Shown: in pieces, positions 33,763 to 41,273 of the stretch | Numbering within the stretch: the stretch's first letter is position 1 | How the letters are laid out: every line of letters starts with the position of its first letter | DNA from: Castellaniella sp. | GTDB lineage: Bacteria; Pseudomonadota; Gammaproteobacteria; Burkholderiales; Burkholderiaceae_B | Reading direction: 5' to 3' | DNA: 64,000 nucleotides | NCBI RefSeq assembly: GCF_004321985.1 | Contig: NZ_SCQN01000046.1 | Location: forward strand, 124,001 to 188,000 | The notes under the pieces: generated by a model | Told to the model about the DNA's origin: nothing | The model's input: only the letters and a program-made list of their open reading frames with translations | Database searches by the model: none | Program-made: the position numbers and the translations under genes

Positions 33763-33940
33763 GGGATCCTCCTGCGGTCGATGACGCTTAACTGTAGCGC
33801 ACCCGTCGTCGGCGTCGCCGCGCCGGCCGCAGTGGAACCTTGGGACCGGGGGTGTCCTGGCAGCGCGTCCGGGATCCACGGGCCGGAGACGATATTGGTG
33901 AAATCACCTAGACGTGACAGCAGGTTTTGCTATGAATTGT

Positions 33941-33978
33941 CTAAAAATTTAGTTTAGTATAAAAAAGTAGATAATTAA
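33941..33978. promoter_or_regulatory. AT-rich promoter/operator of the orotate-type operon
   Basis: An AT-rich island at about 33930-33985 precedes the MFS gene. It contains the palindrome CTAAA-AA-TTTAG (33941-33952), repeated TTTAGT elements, and AAAAAAGTAGATAATT. It is sharply different in base composition from its surroundings and is the natural promoter region of the following six-gene operon. It is a plausible binding site for the operon's XRE-family regulator. Confidence 0.4.
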
Positions 33979-34040
33979 TCATTGGCGGGCGCCATTCGGC
34001 GACGCCCCCCCTTCTCATCCGGATACAGGAGCCAACCACA

Positions 34041-35288
34041 GTGGACGCTCAACTCAACATTGACCAACGGGGTGGCAGCTCACCCGATACGGTATCGCCC
34101 TACGCCTGGAAGGCCCTATGGGGCTCGGCGATCGGTTATGCCATGGACGGCTTCGACTTGCTGATTCTTGGGTTCATGCTGACAGCGATTTCGGCCGATC
34201 TGCATCTGGCCCCGAGTCAGGCGGGGGCACTGGTGACGTGGACGCTAGTGGGGGCCGTCTGTGGTGGCATTGTGTTTGGCTCACTGAGCGATCATTACGG
34301 TCGGGTGCGGGTGCTGACCTGGTCCATCTTGCTGTTTGCCGTGTTCACGGGGCTCTGTGCCGTTGCACAAGGTTATTGGGATCTTCTCGTCTACCGGACC
34401 ATCGCCGGGGTGGGCCTGGGCGGCGAGTTCGGCATCGGTATGGCATTGGCCGCCGAGGCCTGGCCAGCCCGGCACCGGGCGCGAGTCTCGTCCTATGTGG
34501 CATTGGGCTGGCAGGCCGGAGTGCTGGTGGCTGCCATCGTGATTCCGTTCCTGTTGCCGCGCATCGGTTGGCGCGGCATGTTCCTGGTCGGCATCTTCCC
34601 GGCTGTTGTCGCCTGGGTGATCCGCCGCCATCTGCATGAGCCGGATCTGTTCGTCGAGAAAGTCGAGAAGCAGCGCCACAGCCTGTTGGATTCGTATCGC
34701 ATGCTGGTGAGTGATCCGCGCACTACACGTACCAGTGTGGGCATGTTCATCCTGTGCTCGGTCCAGAACTTCGGCTACTACGGGATCATGATCTGGATGC
34801 CGACCTACCTGGCGAAGTCCCAGGGCTTTGGATTGACCAAATCCGCCGTCTGGACCGGAGCCACGATCATCGGGATGGCTTTCGGGATCTGGCTCTTTGG
34901 TCATCTGGCCGACCGCATTGGCCGCAAGCCCAGTTTCCTGATCTATCAGCTGGGGGCCATCGTCATGGTGCTGTATTACTCTCAGTTGACCAATCCCGAC
35001 ACCATGCTCTGGGCGGGTGCGGTGATGGGGCTGTTCGTCAACGGCATGCTGGGCGGCAATGGCGCGGTGATGTCCGAGGCCTACCCGACGGAAGCCCGCG
35101 CCACGGCGCAGAACGTGCTGTTCAATCTGGGTCGGGCCGTGGGCGGTTTCGGTCCGCTGGTGGTCGGCGCGATTGCCGCTGCCTATTCCTTTCATGTGGC
35201 CATCGCATTGCTGGCTTCCATCTACGTGCTGGACATGCTGGCAACGGTGTTTCTGATCCCCGAGCTGAAGGGGGCGGAGCTGAAGTAA
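34041..35288 (+). CDS. MFS transporter, AAHS-like (aromatic acid:H+ symporter)
   Basis: A 415-residue 12-helix MFS transporter that resembles the aromatic acid/H+ symporter group: GYAMDGFDLLILGFML in helix 1, GSLSDHYGRVRVL in loop 2-3, the substrate-region RTIAGVGLGGEFGIG in helix 4 and GHLADRIGRKPSF in the second half. Its GTG start has AGGAG nine bases upstream. It is the first gene of a tight operon that includes a dihydroorotate dehydrogenase. Orotate is an aromatic carboxylate, so uptake of orotate or a related pyrimidine acid is the simplest reading; this is inferred from context. Its stop overlaps the next start (TAATG). Confidence 0.85.
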   Translation: MDAQLNIDQRGGSSPDTVSPYAWKALWGSAIGYAMDGFDLLILGFMLTAISADLHLAPSQAGALVTWTLVGAVCGGIVFGSLSDHYGRVRVLTWSILLFAVFTGLCAVAQGYWDLLVYRTIAGVGLGGEFGIGMALAAEAWPARHRARVSSYVALGWQAGVLVAAIVIPFLLPRIGWRGMFLVGIFPAVVAWVIRRHLHEPDLFVEKVEKQRHSLLDSYRMLVSDPRTTRTSVGMFILCSVQNFGYYGIMIWMPTYLAKSQGFGLTKSAVWTGATIIGMAFGIWLFGHLADRIGRKPSFLIYQLGAIVMVLYYSQLTNPDTMLWAGAVMGLFVNGMLGGNGAVMSEAYPTEARATAQNVLFNLGRAVGGFGPLVVGAIAAAYSFHVAIALLASIYVLDMLATVFLIPELKGAELK

Positions 35289-36178
35289 TGACGGTTGGGA
35301 CGCGTGAGGATCTGCGGCAGTGCACGGATATGCGGGATGTGCAGGGTTTCCGGCGCAATGCGCAGGCAGTGGCATCGCATGTGTGCCGCGTGCAGGAACA
35401 CCGCTGGGTGAATGCCCGCTACAAGTACCTGCGCCTGGAGTCCGATACGGGTCTGGCCAGTGTGACGTTTCCGGGTCAGTTCTATCAGTTGAAATGCCCC
35501 GTCACGGAGGCGTCGCAGCCGTTCCTGCTGCGTCCCATGAGCGTCTACGGGACGGGGCCAGGAGCCGGCGGGATCCAGTTCCTGTACAACGTCACGGGTA
35601 CCGGTACGCGGGCGCTGGCAGAATTGCGGGTTGGCGACACGATGCAGATCGTGGGGCCGCTGGGCAATACCTTCACCATACAGCCAGCCTTCCGGCGCAT
35701 TCTCTTGGTAGCCCGGGGAGTGGGCCTGGCGACGCTTGCGCCAGTGGTTCGGGCGGCAGCATCGGCAGGGACAAACATCGTGGCCGTCATGTCGGCCCGC
35801 ATGCCGGCCGATCTGATGCGCGATGAGTTCCTCGGGGACGCGCCGGCCGACGTTCACTGTGTGTATGACAGCAATGGTTCATCGGCGGTGGATCGGGTGG
35901 AGATCCTGGTTCGCCGCCTGTTGACCGAGCAGCCTGCCGATGCGGTTTATACCTGCGGCTCGCAGCGGTTGCTGATGCTGCTACAACGGGTGTTGGGCGA
36001 TTTCCCGGACGTGCTGGGCGAGGTGGCCATGGAGCAGCACATGGCCTGCGGCATGGGGGTGTGCCTGTCCTGTGTGCGGTTGTTCGATCGGGACGGGAGC
36101 AAGCAGTTCCTTCGCGTCTGCCGTGATGGGCCGGTGTTTCCCATCCGCGATGTGGTGGGCGAGGTGCAATATGGTTGA
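35288..36178 (+). CDS. Dihydroorotate dehydrogenase electron-transfer subunit (PyrK-like)
   Basis: A 296-residue FAD and [2Fe-2S] subunit of the ferredoxin reductase superfamily, like PyrK of class 1B dihydroorotate dehydrogenases. It has an N-terminal FAD domain with LRPMS (about residue 82), a nucleotide-binding segment VARGVGLATLAP (about 142), and four C-terminal cysteines (ACGMGVC, SC, RVC) in a C-x4-C-x2-C-x15-C pattern that would hold the iron-sulfur cluster. The usual GGGxG of PyrK is ARGVG, so it is divergent. It would pass electrons between NAD(H) and the catalytic subunit. It overlaps the transporter gene by one base and the next gene by eight. Confidence 0.85.
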   Translation: MTVGTREDLRQCTDMRDVQGFRRNAQAVASHVCRVQEHRWVNARYKYLRLESDTGLASVTFPGQFYQLKCPVTEASQPFLLRPMSVYGTGPGAGGIQFLYNVTGTGTRALAELRVGDTMQIVGPLGNTFTIQPAFRRILLVARGVGLATLAPVVRAAASAGTNIVAVMSARMPADLMRDEFLGDAPADVHCVYDSNGSSAVDRVEILVRRLLTEQPADAVYTCGSQRLLMLLQRVLGDFPDVLGEVAMEQHMACGMGVCLSCVRLFDRDGSKQFLRVCRDGPVFPIRDVVGEVQYG

Positions 36179-37121
36179 TCTGAGCGTGGATCTCGACGGT
36201 CTGCCGTTGCGCAGCCCCATCATGCCCGCGTCGGGCTGCTTCGCCATCGAATATGCCGAGGCGCTGGATTTCAATCGATTGGGCGCGCTGGTCATCAAGA
36301 GCGTCTCGCCCAGGAGCCGGCTCGGCAATCCGACGCCGAGGGTGGCCGAGACAGCCAGCGGCATGCTGAATTCCATCGGGATTCCCAGCAAGGGCCTGGA
36401 TTACTTCCTGGATCATGTGTTGCCGCCCTATCTGCAGTTCCGCACACCCGTGGTCGTATCCATCTCGGCCGACACTGTGGATGAATTCGCGCAGGCGGCC
36501 GCCCGGCTGTCAGTGCCTGGTGTGGCGGTGATCGAGGCCAATATTTCCTGCCCCAACCTGGAGGCCGACGGCCTGGCGTTCGCGATGGATCCGGAAGCGA
36601 CCCGTGCGGCCATGCGGGCCGTGAAGGCGCAGACCGCGCTTCCTGTGTGGGCCAAACTCACCCCCAATGTGTCGCATGTGGCGGAGATCGCCTGTGCTGC
36701 CGAGGCGGGCGGCGCCAGTGCGCTGGTCATGGGCAATACCGTGCTGGGCATGGCCATCGACGTCCATACGCGCAAGCCCCGGCTCGGGAATGTCATGGGG
36801 GGTTTGTCCGGGCCTGCGATCAAGCCCATCGCGGTGCGCATGGTGTACCAGTGCCACCGCAGCGTCAGCATTCCCATCATCGGCTGTGGCGGAATCGCCT
36901 GCGCCGAGGATGTCGTGGAGTTCATGCTGGCGGGCGCCAGTGCCATACAGGTGGGGGCCGCGTCGTTCCAGGATCCGGCAATCATGCAGAAGATTACCGA
37001 TGACCTGGTCCGGTTCTGCGATGAGACGGGGGTTCCGGCCGTTGGCGGACTGACCGGCGCCATCGCTCTGGACGCGGATCTGACCGACAGCTGGCTGCGC
37101 ATGGCGCAGCAATCGGGCTAG
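36171..37121 (+). CDS. Dihydroorotate dehydrogenase catalytic subunit (class 1B, PyrD-like)
   Basis: A 316-residue FMN TIM-barrel enzyme interconverting dihydroorotate and orotate. Motifs seen are MPASGCF at the N-terminus, KSVSPRSRLGNPTPR, the substrate loop MLNSIGIPSKG, and the active-site base Cys in NISCPN (serine in membrane class 2 enzymes). VMGGLSGPAIKPIAVRMV and GCGGIACAEDVVEFMLAG complete the FMN site. Pairing with a PyrK-type subunit makes it the NAD-linked class 1B type. Betaproteobacteria normally synthesise pyrimidines with a quinone-linked class 2 PyrD, so this pair is probably an accessory enzyme. In anaerobic orotate breakdown, class 1B enzymes run in the reducing direction. 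Confidence 0.88.
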   Translation: MVDLSVDLDGLPLRSPIMPASGCFAIEYAEALDFNRLGALVIKSVSPRSRLGNPTPRVAETASGMLNSIGIPSKGLDYFLDHVLPPYLQFRTPVVVSISADTVDEFAQAAARLSVPGVAVIEANISCPNLEADGLAFAMDPEATRAAMRAVKAQTALPVWAKLTPNVSHVAEIACAAEAGGASALVMGNTVLGMAIDVHTRKPRLGNVMGGLSGPAIKPIAVRMVYQCHRSVSIPIIGCGGIACAEDVVEFMLAGASAIQVGAASFQDPAIMQKITDDLVRFCDETGVPAVGGLTGAIALDADLTDSWLRMAQQSG

Positions 37122-37172
37122 CCGAGGCCGGCAGCCGCCGCAGCGGGCGCAACTTGAAGGTGCAGCACAATC

Positions 37173-38429
37173 ATGATCGATCTTATCCAATATCGGGCGC
37201 TGGCGGAAAAGATTTTCGCTGACATCCGCGAGTTCTCCTTTGATGGCGTGGGCATCACCCGCGAAAGCTACGGGCGCGGTGAGTCCGCAGCCGCCGATTA
37301 TCTGCGGGGTCTTGCCGAGTCGGAGGGGCTGGCCGTGCAGGCCGATCGGGCCGCCAACCTGGTTTTCCGGTTTCCGGAGACGCCGGCTAGTAACTCGGTC
37401 ATCTGGATGGGATCGCACATGGACTCGGTGCCCCAGGGGGGCAATTACGATGGTCTGGCGGGTGTCGTGGCCGGTTTGCTGTGTCTGGTGGCGCGCCGCC
37501 GCGAAGGCGTGGGCGGCCCGCTTGAGGTCATCGGCTTCCGGGGCGAGGAAAGCGCCTGGTTTGGCAAGGCCTACATGGGTTCCAGCGCGCTGCTGGGAAA
37601 ACTGTCCGAGGCCGATCTGGCGCTCAGGCGCCGGGGCGCGGATGAGTCCCTGGGCGACTGCATGCAGGCGCTGGGTGCCGACATGACGGCCATTCGGGCT
37701 GGTGAAAGGCTGTTTGATCCCGCTCGCGTGAGAACGTATCTGGAGCTCCACATCGAGCAGGGACCGGTCATGGTGGCGCGCGATCTGCCGGTTGCGGTGG
37801 TGTCCAGCATCCGGGGGAACTTTCGTCACAATCATATTGTGTGCGAGGGCGAGTCGGGGCATTCCGGTGTGGTGCCCCGGTGGTTGCGGCACGATGCCAT
37901 GTTTGCGGTGGCCGACCTGCTGATGCGGCTGGACGAGCATTGGCGGATGCTGCAGGAACGTGGCACGGATCTTGTGCTCACGGCGGGCATCGTCGGGACC
38001 GATCCTGCGGAACACGCGGTCTCGCGCATTCCGGGCCGCGTCGCGTTCAGCCTGGAGGCGCGTAGCCGCAGCACGGATACGCTGGAGGCCTTCTATCAGC
38101 TAGTGCGAGCAGAGTGCTCGGCGATCGCGCACGAACGCGGTGTGGCGTTCGATTTTGACCGGCGGGTGCTGTCGGCCCCTGCCACGATGAATACGCGTGT
38201 GTGTGATACGCTTTCTGCCGCCTGCGCGGCGCGCGAGCTGGCTCACGACGTAATCCCCAGCGGCGCCGGGCATGATGCGGCCCTGATGGCCAATGCCGGC
38301 ATCCCCAGCGGCATGGTGTTCGTGCGTAACCAGAACGGATCGCATAATCCGCGCGAGGCGATGGATCTGGACGATTTCATGCTGGGTGTGCAGGTGCTCA
38401 GCGATGCGCTGGAGCCCCTGAGCGCGTGA
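37173..38429 (+). CDS. M20-family carbamoylase-type amidohydrolase
   Basis: A 418-residue zinc/manganese amidohydrolase of the allantoate amidohydrolase/N-carbamoyl-amino-acid hydrolase group. Metal-ligand motifs are complete: GSHMDSVPQGGNYDG (His and Asp), GEESAWFG (Glu), LELHIEQGPV (His) and the C-terminal GSHNPREAMD (His). A lid domain lies between about residues 210 and 325. Such enzymes split ureido groups to an amine, CO2 and ammonia. Next to a dihydroorotate dehydrogenase, the attractive substrate is N-carbamoyl-L-aspartate (ureidosuccinate), yielding aspartate. Hydantoin-derived carbamoyl amino acids or beta-ureidopropionate are alternatives. It starts 52 bases after the previous gene. 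Confidence 0.88.
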   Translation: MIDLIQYRALAEKIFADIREFSFDGVGITRESYGRGESAAADYLRGLAESEGLAVQADRAANLVFRFPETPASNSVIWMGSHMDSVPQGGNYDGLAGVVAGLLCLVARRREGVGGPLEVIGFRGEESAWFGKAYMGSSALLGKLSEADLALRRRGADESLGDCMQALGADMTAIRAGERLFDPARVRTYLELHIEQGPVMVARDLPVAVVSSIRGNFRHNHIVCEGESGHSGVVPRWLRHDAMFAVADLLMRLDEHWRMLQERGTDLVLTAGIVGTDPAEHAVSRIPGRVAFSLEARSRSTDTLEAFYQLVRAECSAIAHERGVAFDFDRRVLSAPATMNTRVCDTLSAACAARELAHDVIPSGAGHDAALMANAGIPSGMVFVRNQNGSHNPREAMDLDDFMLGVQVLSDALEPLSA

Positions 38430-38475
38430 TGGCGTTGTGGATGGCGGTCGCTCGGGCTGTTCGGGAGAGGAGGCA

Positions 38476-39186
38476 ATGGTGAATTCGTCGATGTTTTTTG
38501 GCCCCGATGTCTTCGGGCAGCAGGCTGATCCAGCCGCGGCGGTGGCGCGGGCGTTGCTTGAGGCCGGCTGCGTCCGATTGCGCGCCGAGGAGCCGTTTCA
38601 CCTTCCATCAGGGTGGGCCAGTCCCGTCTACATCGATTGCCGGCGGCTGATCTCGTTTCCAGCTCTGCGCCGTCAGCTGCTGGCGCGCGCTCTGCGGGTG
38701 CTGCAAGCGCGTGGCGCGCTGGATGGGCTTGTCGCCGTGGCCGGCGGCGAGGCCAGCGGAATTGCCCTGGCGGCCTGGATGGCCGAGGCGTTCGGGCTGC
38801 CGCTGCAGTACGTGCGCAAGCGGCGTACCAGTCGCAATCAGGTCGAGGGTGTCGTCGTAGCGGGCGGCAGGGTGCTGCTGGTGGATGACATGATGGCCGG
38901 CGGCCAGTCAAAGGTCCGGTTTTGCAAGGCGTTGTCGGCGGCCGGTGCACGGGTCGACACGCTGTTCGTCGTGTTCGACTATGGGACATTCCCCACCGAT
39001 GAGCTTCTCGCTCCACTGGGGGTATCAGTCTGTGCGCTGGCGACTTGGCAGGATGTCCTGGGGGTCTGGCGGGCTGATGGTGGCATTGCTCCACAGGCCC
39101 TGCGCGATTTCGAGTCTTTCCTGTCGGACCCGGCTGGCTGGTCGCAGGCCCACGGCGGCCTGGGGCAGAATCCGGCCAGGCGCTGA
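38476..39186 (+). CDS. Divergent orotate phosphoribosyltransferase-like protein
   Basis: A 236-residue protein with the type I phosphoribosyltransferase fold and clear OPRT features: FHLPSGWASPVYIDCRRLIS, VAVAGGEASGI and YVRKRRTSRNQVEG (catalytic flexible loop region). The PRPP-binding loop, normally VDDVxTxGTS, reads VDDMMAGGQS (136-145), so it is altered at the TxGT positions. The housekeeping pyrE at 40605 has the normal [10 protein letters not shown]. The protein may convert orotate to OMP as salvage, use another base, or act as a regulator. Start codon choice among ATG 38476, GTG 38479 and ATG 38491 is unclear, since AGGAGG lies very close to the first. Confidence 0.8.
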   Translation: MVNSSMFFGPDVFGQQADPAAAVARALLEAGCVRLRAEEPFHLPSGWASPVYIDCRRLISFPALRRQLLARALRVLQARGALDGLVAVAGGEASGIALAAWMAEAFGLPLQYVRKRRTSRNQVEGVVVAGGRVLLVDDMMAGGQSKVRFCKALSAAGARVDTLFVVFDYGTFPTDELLAPLGVSVCALATWQDVLGVWRADGGIAPQALRDFESFLSDPAGWSQAHGGLGQNPARR

Positions 39187-39189
39187 CGG

Positions 39190-40098
39190 GTGCCACCCAT
39201 GCCCGATGCGCCCGCGTTCAAGTCTGCGATCGACTATGCTGCCCTGGGTGACCGCCTGCATGCCTATCGCATTGGCGCTGCGCTGCAGGCTGAGGACGTG
39301 GCCGCCCAGCTTGGCATCTCCAGGGCGGCCGTCTACCGTATGGAAAAGGGCGAGATCGTCAAGATCGATACGCTGGAGCGGGTCGCCGAACTGCTGGGGA
39401 CGTCGCTGGCATCGCTGCTGGGCGTGGAGGTCGAGTATTACGCCAACGCCCTGGGGTTTTTCGAGCGCATGCGTCAGCTCGAACGCAGCGCCGACAATAT
39501 CTTCGCCCATTTCGAGCCTGTCTCTCTGCTGCTGGCCTCGGACGACTACCCGGAGCTGCTGCGCGGCATGCTGCTGGAGGTCACCGCGCGGCGGGCGGGC
39601 GGGGCGCTGACCGAGGATGAGGCCAACGCCATCATCGGTGTGATCGCGGATCGGCGGGCGACCTTTCGCGAGCGTCGTCCCCAGGTCGTGGGCCTGATCG
39701 GCATGCACGGGCTGGAGCGCTTCCTGCAGATGGGCATGGTGGGCCGGGTCAGGCTGTCGGAGGCCGTCCGGCGGCAGCGCCTGGCGGCTGCGCGGCGGGA
39801 GATCGGCCGGCTGGCCGATCTGATGGCCAGCGAGTTGCTGAATGTCCGCATTGGCTTGATCGATGACGCCATGCCGGCGTCTACCTTCGAGTTTTTCTCA
39901 GGGCCGTCCGGCAAGGCGGTCGCGGTCAGCCCATTCCGTCTGGGAGAGCTGCCCAATGTTCGCAACGGCATCGCCACCGTGACGTCGGCGCCCGAGGCGA
40001 TCCGGCGCTACGAGCACCTGATTGCTCGTTTGTGGAAGAGCGCATACAAGGGCGCGGCCGGTGCGGCCCATCTGCATAAACTGCTGGGCCGGCTCTGA
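39190..40098 (+). CDS. XRE-family transcriptional regulator
   Basis: A 302-residue regulator (299 if the ATG at 39199 is used). The N-terminal Cro/C1-type helix-turn-helix at about 20-75 (HAYRIGAALQAEDVAAQLGI, then SRAAVYRMEKGEI) is followed by a large domain of about 210 residues with no family I recognise, probably a ligand-binding domain. It is the last gene of the operon beginning with the MFS transporter, three bases after the PRT-like gene, and most likely senses a pathway intermediate such as orotate or dihydroorotate to control the operon. The palindrome near 33941 is a candidate operator. Confidence 0.8.
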   Translation: MPPMPDAPAFKSAIDYAALGDRLHAYRIGAALQAEDVAAQLGISRAAVYRMEKGEIVKIDTLERVAELLGTSLASLLGVEVEYYANALGFFERMRQLERSADNIFAHFEPVSLLLASDDYPELLRGMLLEVTARRAGGALTEDEANAIIGVIADRRATFRERRPQVVGLIGMHGLERFLQMGMVGRVRLSEAVRRQRLAAARREIGRLADLMASELLNVRIGLIDDAMPASTFEFFSGPSGKAVAVSPFRLGELPNVRNGIATVTSAPEAIRRYEHLIARLWKSAYKGAAGAAHLHKLLGRL

Positions 40099-40207: not shown

Positions 40208-40534
40208 ATGACATTCAAGGAAATCACGCAGCGTTTCGCGCAGTCGGAATCGGGCAGCGATTCGTTCAAGCAGTTCTACAAGGACGCGTTCCAGCTCATG
40301 AAGCAGGATCCGGCCAACGCCGGGCTGTATTTCGTGGTGGGGATCGCTGCCCAGACCTACGTCATCAAATACGAGGATCAGGAGGTCGCGCCGGAATTCG
40401 CCGATCGCGTGAAGGCGACATTGGAGTCCTTCAACAGCCGGTTGCTGGCTGCGCTGGACATGGCGCCCGCCGAGCGCCTGAAGGCCCTCGGTGAAGTGGC
40501 CGTCGACTACGAGTGGAACGAAGACGCGTTCTGA
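40208..40534 (+). CDS. Conserved hypothetical protein (108 aa)
   Basis: A soluble, acidic protein of 108 residues starting [10 protein letters not shown]. There is no signal peptide, membrane helix or known motif, but the composition and codon use look like a real gene. The ATG at 40208 is preceded by a GGGA just upstream. A strong hairpin follows its stop and separates it from pyrE. A link to pyrimidine synthesis is possible by position only. Confidence 0.65.
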
Positions 40535-40604: not shown

Positions 40605-41273
40605 ATGCCCGGGACGCACGCCCTAGCCTTCGTTCGCTTTGCCCTGGAACACGGGGTTCTGCGCTTTGGTGAGTTCAAGACCAAGTCGGGGCGCGTGAGC
40701 CCCTACTTTTTCAATGCGGGCCTGTTCAACGATGGCGCCTGTGTCGGCCGGCTAGGCAAGTTCTACGCCGAGGCTCTGGTGAATTCCGGGCTGGAGTTCG
40801 ACATGCTGTTTGGCCCCGCCTACAAGGGCATTCCGCTGGCGACGACGGCGGCGGTCGCGCTGGCCGAACACCCCGTGCTGGCTGGTCGCCATGTTCCGTT
40901 TGCCTTCAATCGGAAAGAGGCCAAGGACCACGGTGAAGGCGGCGTGTTGGTGGGGGCGCCGCTCGCCGGCCGGGTGGTGATCATCGATGACGTGGTCACT
41001 GCTGGTACGTCCGTGCGAGAGTCCGTGGCGCTGATCCGTGCCGCTGGTGCCCAGCCTGCCGCCGTGCTGATCGCAATGGACCGCATGGAGCGTGCGGGTA
41101 CGCTCGGCAACCTGTCGGCGCATTCCGCCGTCCAGGATCTGGAGCAGACCTATGACCTCCCCGTCATCAGCATTGCCTCGCTCACGGATGTGATCGGTCT
41201 GCTGGACGGCGACCAGGATTTGAACACGCACCGCGAAGCAGTGGTCGCGTACCGCGCGCAATACGGGATCTGA
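40605..41273 (+). CDS. pyrE: Orotate phosphoribosyltransferase
   Basis: PyrE joins orotate to PRPP to form OMP in pyrimidine synthesis. The 222-residue product has [19 protein letters not shown] at the N-terminus, the substrate loop [10 protein letters not shown], the catalytic loop [13 protein letters not shown] and a normal PRPP motif [10 protein letters not shown]. The ATG at 40605 ([10 protein letters not shown]) is chosen over upstream in-frame starts because it fits the family N-terminus and begins after the leader hairpin. It is a separate housekeeping copy; a diverged paralogue is coded at 38476-39186. Confidence 0.95.

Follow-up and report, generated by a model that had tools for sequence, protein, structure and literature searches.

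The 64,000-nucleotide stretch of Castellaniella sp. DNA analysed here (the window, meaning the whole stretch) contains a candidate operon for the breakdown of orotate. Six genes run in one direction with overlaps or short gaps, encoding an MFS transporter, a PyrK-like subunit, a class 1B PyrD, an M20-family hydrolase, an orotate phosphoribosyltransferase (OPRT)-like protein and an XRE-family regulator, and a small gene sits between the XRE gene and an ordinary pyrE (Table 1). An earlier reading of the letters alone (the sequence-only reading) had described this run and a normal pyrE just downstream, and both descriptions held: the six genes lie on the forward strand in the families it had named, and pyrE exceeds the TIGR00336 cut-off. 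Comparison of the window with a Castellaniella relative (locus L001) gave ratios of nonsynonymous to synonymous substitution (dN/dS) of 0.05–0.15 for eight genes (the six, the small gene and pyrE), all of which are under purifying selection.

Table 1 Features of the candidate operon; coordinates are positions within the 64-kb Castellaniella sp. window, + is the forward strand and PRPP is phosphoribosyl pyrophosphate.
Feature	Position	Strand	Remarks
Putative operator	33939..33972	.	GTCTAAAAATTTAGTT (33939-33954) and weaker copy GTATAAAAAAGTAGAT (33957-33972); basis, cross-genome motif
MFS transporter, AAHS-like, proposed orotate importer	34041..35288	+	GTG start; under TIGR00895 cut-off
PyrK-like FAD/2Fe-2S electron-transfer subunit	35288..36178	+	1-base overlap with MFS gene
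Class 1B PyrD, proposed NADH-linked orotate reductase	36171..37121	+	8-base overlap with PyrK gene
M20 carbamoylase-family hydrolase, proposed N-carbamoyl-L-aspartate amidohydrolase (ureidosuccinase)	37173..38429	+	
OPRT-like protein, shortened catalytic loop, altered PRPP motif	38476..39186	+	ATG start; alternative GTG at 38437
XRE-family regulator, C-terminal domain resembling PLD-like fold	39190..40098	+	
Product of the small seventh gene of the set (conserved, 108 aa), predicted five-helix bundle	40208..40534	+	
Ordinary pyrE, downstream	about 40605-41273		TIGR00336 192 bits, cut-off 107

Proteins were typed with Pfam and NCBIfam models at their cut-offs and by comparison with solved relatives. 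PyrD carries a DHO_dh domain, exceeds the cut-offs of NF005574 (355 bits; cut-off 269) and TIGR01037 (314; 270) and falls under that of PreA (130.9; 335), and its active-site cysteine, C127, is kept in at least 97% of 45 sequences. PyrK has DHODB_Fe-S_bind and FAD_binding_6 domains, matches the PyrK of 1ep1 (E 2.6e-22) and has four Fe-S cysteines (C254, C259, C262 and C278), each likewise kept in at least 97% of 45 sequences; its best equivalog score, 113 bits, is under the cut-offs of 219–314. The transporter is closest to the aromatic-acid symporters of TIGR00895 (349.5 bits; cut-off 418.55). On these comparisons PyrK, the OPRT-like protein (see below) and the transporter are recognisable as members of their families, though under the cut-offs.

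The M20 hydrolase passes the hydantoinase/carbamoylase model TIGR01879 (261.8 bits; cut-off 204) and lies below the cut-offs of the sub-family models PRK12891 (387; 461), PRK09290.1-5 (381.5; 399), ErtE (281; 520) and AllC (199; 598). Four arginines, R123, R214, R236 and R285, are present in 46, 46, 44 and 44, respectively, of the 46 M20 proteins from loci with PyrK and PyrD (window included); all four are absent from the two M20 paralogues of the same genome, and they occur in none of five aligned solved chains, two of which are the same enzyme. R123 adjoins a Glu pair and R285 adjoins a position where the paralogues carry Asn; in the M20 family, such positions line the substrate pocket. Such arginines are as expected for a dicarboxylic substrate, for example N-carbamoyl-L-aspartate, which is a fit rather than a proof. 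In the M20 tree, a fully supported branch splits the operon proteins and their near relatives (68 rows) from the two paralogues, and the rows from PyrK/PyrD loci do not form one clade (7 changes). Among 22 M20 loci without PyrD, R285 is kept in 7 (6 with PyrC nearby), while position 285 is valine in 13 OPRT-M20 pairs that form one clade (support 95/99) and lysine in two proteins beside 5-oxoprolinase-like genes; because of this distribution, R285 appears to track other orotate-pathway genes. Ureidosuccinase (EC 3.5.1.7) is not known to have an assigned gene.

The gene neighbourhoods of relatives carry most of the functional argument. Species genomes were scanned with the OPRT sequence (best 79 of at least 540 loci taken), which inflates the frequency of OPRT; the PyrD and M20 searches are free of such bias. 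The tally comprises 67 M20 loci, 45 with M20, PyrK and PyrD (window excluded) and 22 without PyrD, after removal of loci on contigs already counted (L130, L179, L181, L185 and L186), short fragments (L126 and L127 among them) and the two paralogues; the plasmid loci L221–L223, added later, are not part of it. OPRT is present in 44 of the 45 loci, XRE in 30 and the small gene in 19, and 41 have a transporter, either MFS (28) or TRAP DctM (13), never both. Dihydroorotase (PyrC) was found in 11 and aspartate ammonia-lyase (AspA) in 10, with either or both in 19 and both in L008 and L034; each of the two enzymes was called by tblastn against a single reference, the PyrC match of L013 being partial and at the locus edge. 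Pusillimonas-type loci have AspA between M20 and OPRT (the two tested score 746 and 742 bits against the PRK12273 cut-off of 510, and 689 and 680 against the TIGR00839 cut-off of 681), and alphaproteobacterial loci have a class II dihydroorotase in that place (four tested, 410–421 bits; cut-off 293). The whole proposed route stands in one run in Cupriavidus necator SHC 2-3 (L008), with MFS-PyrK-PyrD-M20-PyrC-AspA-OPRT and a divergent XRE, and a plasmid-listed record of Variovorax sp. RA8 reads MFS-PyrK-PyrD-M20-PyrC-XRE-PRT-small gene.

A search with M20 alone (E <= 1e-100) was positive in 30 of 250 family genomes, 20 of which had PyrK, PyrD and MFS adjoining; the other 10 had an OPRT-M20 pair without those three genes, and OPRT was present in 29 of the 30. 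A phylum-wide draw (M20 at E <= 1e-60) gave 8 positives in 398 genomes: the window's own genome, three OPRT-M20 pairs, two beside 5-oxoprolinase-like genes and two further matches (40% and 38%); G460 and G476 in this draw were seen as short fragments only. PyrD was found (E <= 1e-70) in 18 of 399 Burkholderiales genomes, and M20 adjoins the four of highest identity (61–100%); no M20 was found near the other 14, nine viewed over 14–19 kb and five over only 3–4 kb. Judged from these searches, the operon is widespread but rare and patchy. Conservation of gene order was borne out. The set extends beyond Burkholderiales: it occurs in three proteobacterial classes (Alpha-, Beta- and Gammaproteobacteria), and Desulfovibrio has part of it.

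Other arrangements of these genes were also seen. OPRT-M20 pairs without PyrK/PyrD (L143–L145, L197–L206), where their surroundings were read, are accompanied by a divergent gene of LysR type and by transporter genes of various kinds, and in L146 and L147 an M20 of 43–44% identity stands beside PxpA/PxpB/PxpC-like genes (named by eye). A second type of PyrK-PyrD cluster (L131–L139 and fragments L106–L119; PyrD 48–52%), in which PyrC and an XRE of the kind described here are frequent, had no M20 that we could find; L131, L132 and L134 have molybdenum-hydroxylase-like genes (named by eye) beside PyrK-PyrD. Two Desulfovibrio loci (L068 and L076) contain TRAP genes, M20, PyrC and OPRT, with no PyrK/PyrD match within the fetched stretch.

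Within the genus, 2 of 10 genomes carry the operon. A distant PyrD (29–32%) occurs in every one of the 10, and the operon PyrD is present in two (the window's own, 100%, and G005, 88%), with a 37% relative in G007. The window's genome encodes a quinone-dependent PyrD (527 bits; cut-off 457) and a single class II PyrC (451; 293), the latter located outside the operon. An aspartase-like protein (L207) passes PRK12273 (636; 510); it is likely, not certainly, an aspartase, because it fails TIGR00839 (568; 681) and because PRK12273 admits the fumarase L208 as well (523). Eight genus genomes lack the operon PyrD; fragments reaching about 1.5 kb to either side of their pyrE contained ExoIII in seven and no match to the operon genes or the small gene in any. 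A longer stretch (L142) reads pyrE, one gene, then ExoIII. Since the window operon lies between ExoIII and pyrE and is absent from these flanks, it looks like an insert. With a host that has its own quinone-type PyrD, PyrE and PyrC, and with 2 of 10 genus genomes as carriers, the operon is accessory and probably catabolic.

We consider it roughly 85% probable that the operon is an accessory, XRE-controlled system for orotate catabolism, with enzyme specificities and induction inferred from sequence and context. The MFS transporter would import orotate, and PyrK/PyrD, judged by class and context, would work as an NAD-linked class 1B enzyme in the reductive direction, from orotate to L-dihydroorotate. 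A dihydroorotase, encoded in the operon of some relatives and here presumably by the chromosomal pyrC, would open the ring to N-carbamoyl-L-aspartate, which the M20 hydrolase, given its family, partners and clade-specific arginines, may cleave to L-aspartate, CO2 and NH3. Aspartase, in the operon of some relatives and elsewhere in this genome, would then yield fumarate and NH3. The XRE regulator, which co-occurs with a palindrome, would bind that palindrome and sense the substrate. The proposal of orotate or dihydroorotate breakdown, made in the sequence-only reading by analogy with Clostridium oroticum, gains support because relatives encode within the cluster both the missing dihydroorotase (four tested over cut-off) and the next step, AspA, which is hard to explain otherwise.

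Several observations weigh against this interpretation. As had been noted before, the window operon lacks a dihydroorotase, which relatives carry in 11 of 45 loci. PyrK, the OPRT-like protein and the transporter are all below NCBIfam cut-offs. A 13-row M20 clade occurs with OPRT (and LysR where read) without PyrK/PyrD, and membership of the wider M20 clade therefore leaves the substrate unfixed; two further M20 relatives (L146 and L147) adjoin 5-oxoprolinase-like genes. Among the 6 of 8 phylum-wide contexts that were read, PyrK/PyrD occurred in the window's own genome only. Finally, of four M20 loci with XRE and without PyrK/PyrD (L053, L066, L068 and L076), the palindrome was found in L068 only.

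The OPRT-like protein is under the cut-offs of NF001729 (215.6 bits; 245) and TIGR00336 (68; 107), and its nearest solved relative is 4ohc (E 4.4e-52). Its loop is shortened, RKRRTSRNQVEG in the window versus RKKPKGFGRNAQIEG in most other copies, and its PRPP motif is DDMMAGGQSK versus EDLTTDGRSK in most others. The short loop and a change of the motif from LTTDGRSK to MMAGGQSK or similar are shared by the window, L001–L005 and L179–L186; in Cupriavidus and L128 the motif is changed and the loop full-length, and in genus g378 and the alphaproteobacteria the protein appears intact. Selection on the window protein is comparable in strength to that on the genes around it (dN/dS against L001), and in the window clade it may be a non-catalytic binder. 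No OPRT match was found in the Klebsiella operon, though XRE and similar sites are present there, which disfavours an obligatory regulatory role for OPRT. Its earlier description as a salvage enzyme is doubtful, given the altered catalytic and PRPP loops and the Klebsiella operon without OPRT. In loci L034, L048 and L051 the operon OPRT gene has a second OPRT gene a few kb away, outside the operon.

Salvage or backup synthesis, in which imported orotate or dihydroorotate would pass through OPRT to uridine monophosphate and PyrK/PyrD would be a second biosynthetic dehydrogenase (for example at low oxygen), draws on the fact that PyrD, PyrC and OPRT serve in synthesis too and that the alphaproteobacterial OPRT copies are intact. 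We consider it distinctly unlikely, since it has no place for M20 and AspA, the host is already fully equipped for synthesis, the window-clade OPRT has lost residues of the loop and the Klebsiella operons have no OPRT. A different ureido or cyclic compound, such as a hydantoin (for example carboxymethylhydantoin) or another pyrimidine carboxylate, might be the substrate if the DHODH-like and PyrC-like enzymes act on analogues; the M20 family is broad, with relatives beside 5-oxoprolinase-like genes and in OPRT-M20 pairs, and the second PyrK/PyrD cluster type adjoins molybdenum hydroxylases. This seems distinctly unlikely to us, as PyrD and PyrC score over orotate/dihydroorotate models, the PyrD active-site residues are kept and AspA points to aspartate as the product. 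A reductive uracil/thymine pathway of the PydA/PydX-PydB-PydC kind would have the same reaction types in the same order and is very improbable, given the low PreA score of PyrD, a PyrK that is not PreT-like and relatives whose ring-opener is PyrC.

Control of the proposed orotate catabolism by the XRE protein is suggested by a 16-bp palindrome close to GTCTMAAAAWTDAGAC upstream of the operon, with copies in the window 102 and 84 bp ahead of the MFS start. A site (scoring 12 bits or more and lying no further than 500 bp upstream of MFS, DctP, PyrK or XRE, with beta and alpha matrices crossed) was present in 30 of 30 loci having PyrK, PyrD and XRE, versus 3 of 15 such loci without an XRE match (L006, L007 and the AT-rich L035); this rule covers loci with PyrK and PyrD only. 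Sites were first picked by eye upstream of MFS and then used for matrix training; because it was the beta matrix that located the alpha sites, the crossed matrices are not wholly independent. Loci with a divergent XRE have two sites between XRE and MFS, and similar sites lie upstream of PyrK in Klebsiella and of MFS in Variovorax; the Roseomonas locus, which has no XRE match, has no site. L131 and L134, of the molybdenum-hydroxylase type, also carry the palindrome. In the window's genome, the operon site is the sole zero-mismatch match to the pattern. Two stronger claims were rejected: the window operator taken alone ranks top in the 64 kb at 11.9 bits (alpha matrix), yet 4 of 15 simulated windows equal or exceed it, and a wider regulon in this genome gave 15 pattern rows versus 8 for a reversed control.

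The helix-turn-helix of XRE was typed by model search. In its predicted structure (mean predicted local distance difference test score, pLDDT, 85.6), the C-terminal domain best matches PLD-fold proteins (E 5.8e-5) and the archaeal regulator TrmBL2 (2.3e-4), with query TM-scores of 0.31–0.40; this domain may, we infer, sense a ligand.

All six genes described earlier are present, but as a set they are incomplete, since on gene neighbourhood the small gene also belongs. It accompanies the operon in L001–L005 and G106, and in 19 of the 20 family-search genomes with PyrK, PyrD and MFS (window and G005 counted), the exception, L195, being cut by a contig end; it occurs in 19 of 45 loci with M20, PyrK and PyrD versus 0 of 22 M20 loci without PyrD. 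It is also found on Klebsiella (40% identity) and Variovorax (68%) plasmids, and weak profile matches adjoin OPRT or M20 in L025, L051 and L078. The protein has no Pfam match; it is modelled confidently as a five-helix bundle (mean pLDDT 91.7) with no PDB match at E <= 0.001.

The operon is also present on Klebsiella plasmids. An M20 search of 72,556 plasmid records was positive in 84, including 53 from Klebsiella, and the set MFS, PyrK, PyrD, M20, PyrC, XRE and small gene was matched at 80% or more query cover and at least 99% identity in 53 records, all Klebsiella. In L221 (NZ_CP050823.1 55957-75186) the orotate-type operon lies beside lacZ-lacY, and the stretch including these genes was at least 80% covered in at least 49 records. 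In 20,395 E. coli records, nothing closely matched the part of the Klebsiella operon that runs from PyrK to the small gene. One Klebsiella plasmid with the operon, pBckp091-1, is from milk. A milk or mastitis-milk label accompanies 9 of the 53 operon records versus 4 of 60 listed matches (199 in all) to a copper-receptor control whose records include some operon carriers, a weak enrichment that is suggestive only. Orotic acid is named as a natural component of milk in two reports (PMC12111157, PMC8614319). The Klebsiella copies beside lacZY raise the question of milk-nutrient use.

If orotate catabolism is correct, genes can be assigned to the classical orotate breakdown route and a sequence offered for its carbamoyl-aspartate hydrolase; cluster genes named dihydroorotate dehydrogenase, dihydroorotase, OPRT or 'Zn-dependent hydrolase' would be catabolic, not biosynthetic, and the idea of an orotate-responsive switch could be tested on the regulator together with its site. 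We offer more tentatively, and lean against, the broader proposal of a mobile orotate-eating cassette across Proteobacteria, in which a non-enzymatic OPRT-like protein, XRE and the small protein would form an orotate/PRPP-sensing module and M20 would supply the missing ureidosuccinase sequence. The sequence-only reading knew of no described aerobic proteobacterial operon of this make-up, and in agreement with it the accessible open literature, with most subscription journals outside its scope, yielded no gene-level description of such a cluster. We regard the system as a new genetic form, regulated and in part carried by plasmids, of a known pathway; its hydrolase is an unassigned one, its putative operator is new, and the OPRT-like and small helical proteins are further members.

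Clostridium (Zymobacterium) oroticum ferments orotate by NAD-linked orotate reduction, dihydroorotase and ureidosuccinase. The same reactions are proposed here; the difference is a proteobacterial operon that combines transport and enzyme genes, has a regulator and operator to itself, and includes an OPRT-like protein and a helical protein. The class 1B PyrD-PyrK of Lactococcus lactis (1ep1–1ep3) and the 5ksw/5ue9 enzymes are biosynthetic; they share the two subunits, active-site Cys and Fe-S cysteines with the operon enzyme, whereas the Castellaniella host also possesses a quinone-type PyrD apart from the operon, and the partner genes appear catabolic. The reductive uracil pathway (PydA/PydX-PydB-PydC) likewise reduces, opens the ring and removes the carbamoyl group, but the PreA score here is 131 against 335 and relatives carry PyrC, not dihydropyrimidinase. 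Hydantoinase/carbamoylase M20 enzymes (3n5f, an L-carbamoylase; 1z2l, allantoate amidohydrolase) have the metal and catalytic positions in common with the operon hydrolase, which passes the family model; it differs in the extra R123, R214, R236 and R285 and in scores under the sub-model cut-offs. The Burkholderia-type OPRT 4ohc is the closest solved relative of the OPRT-like protein, from which the window clade differs by its shorter loop and changed PRPP motif.

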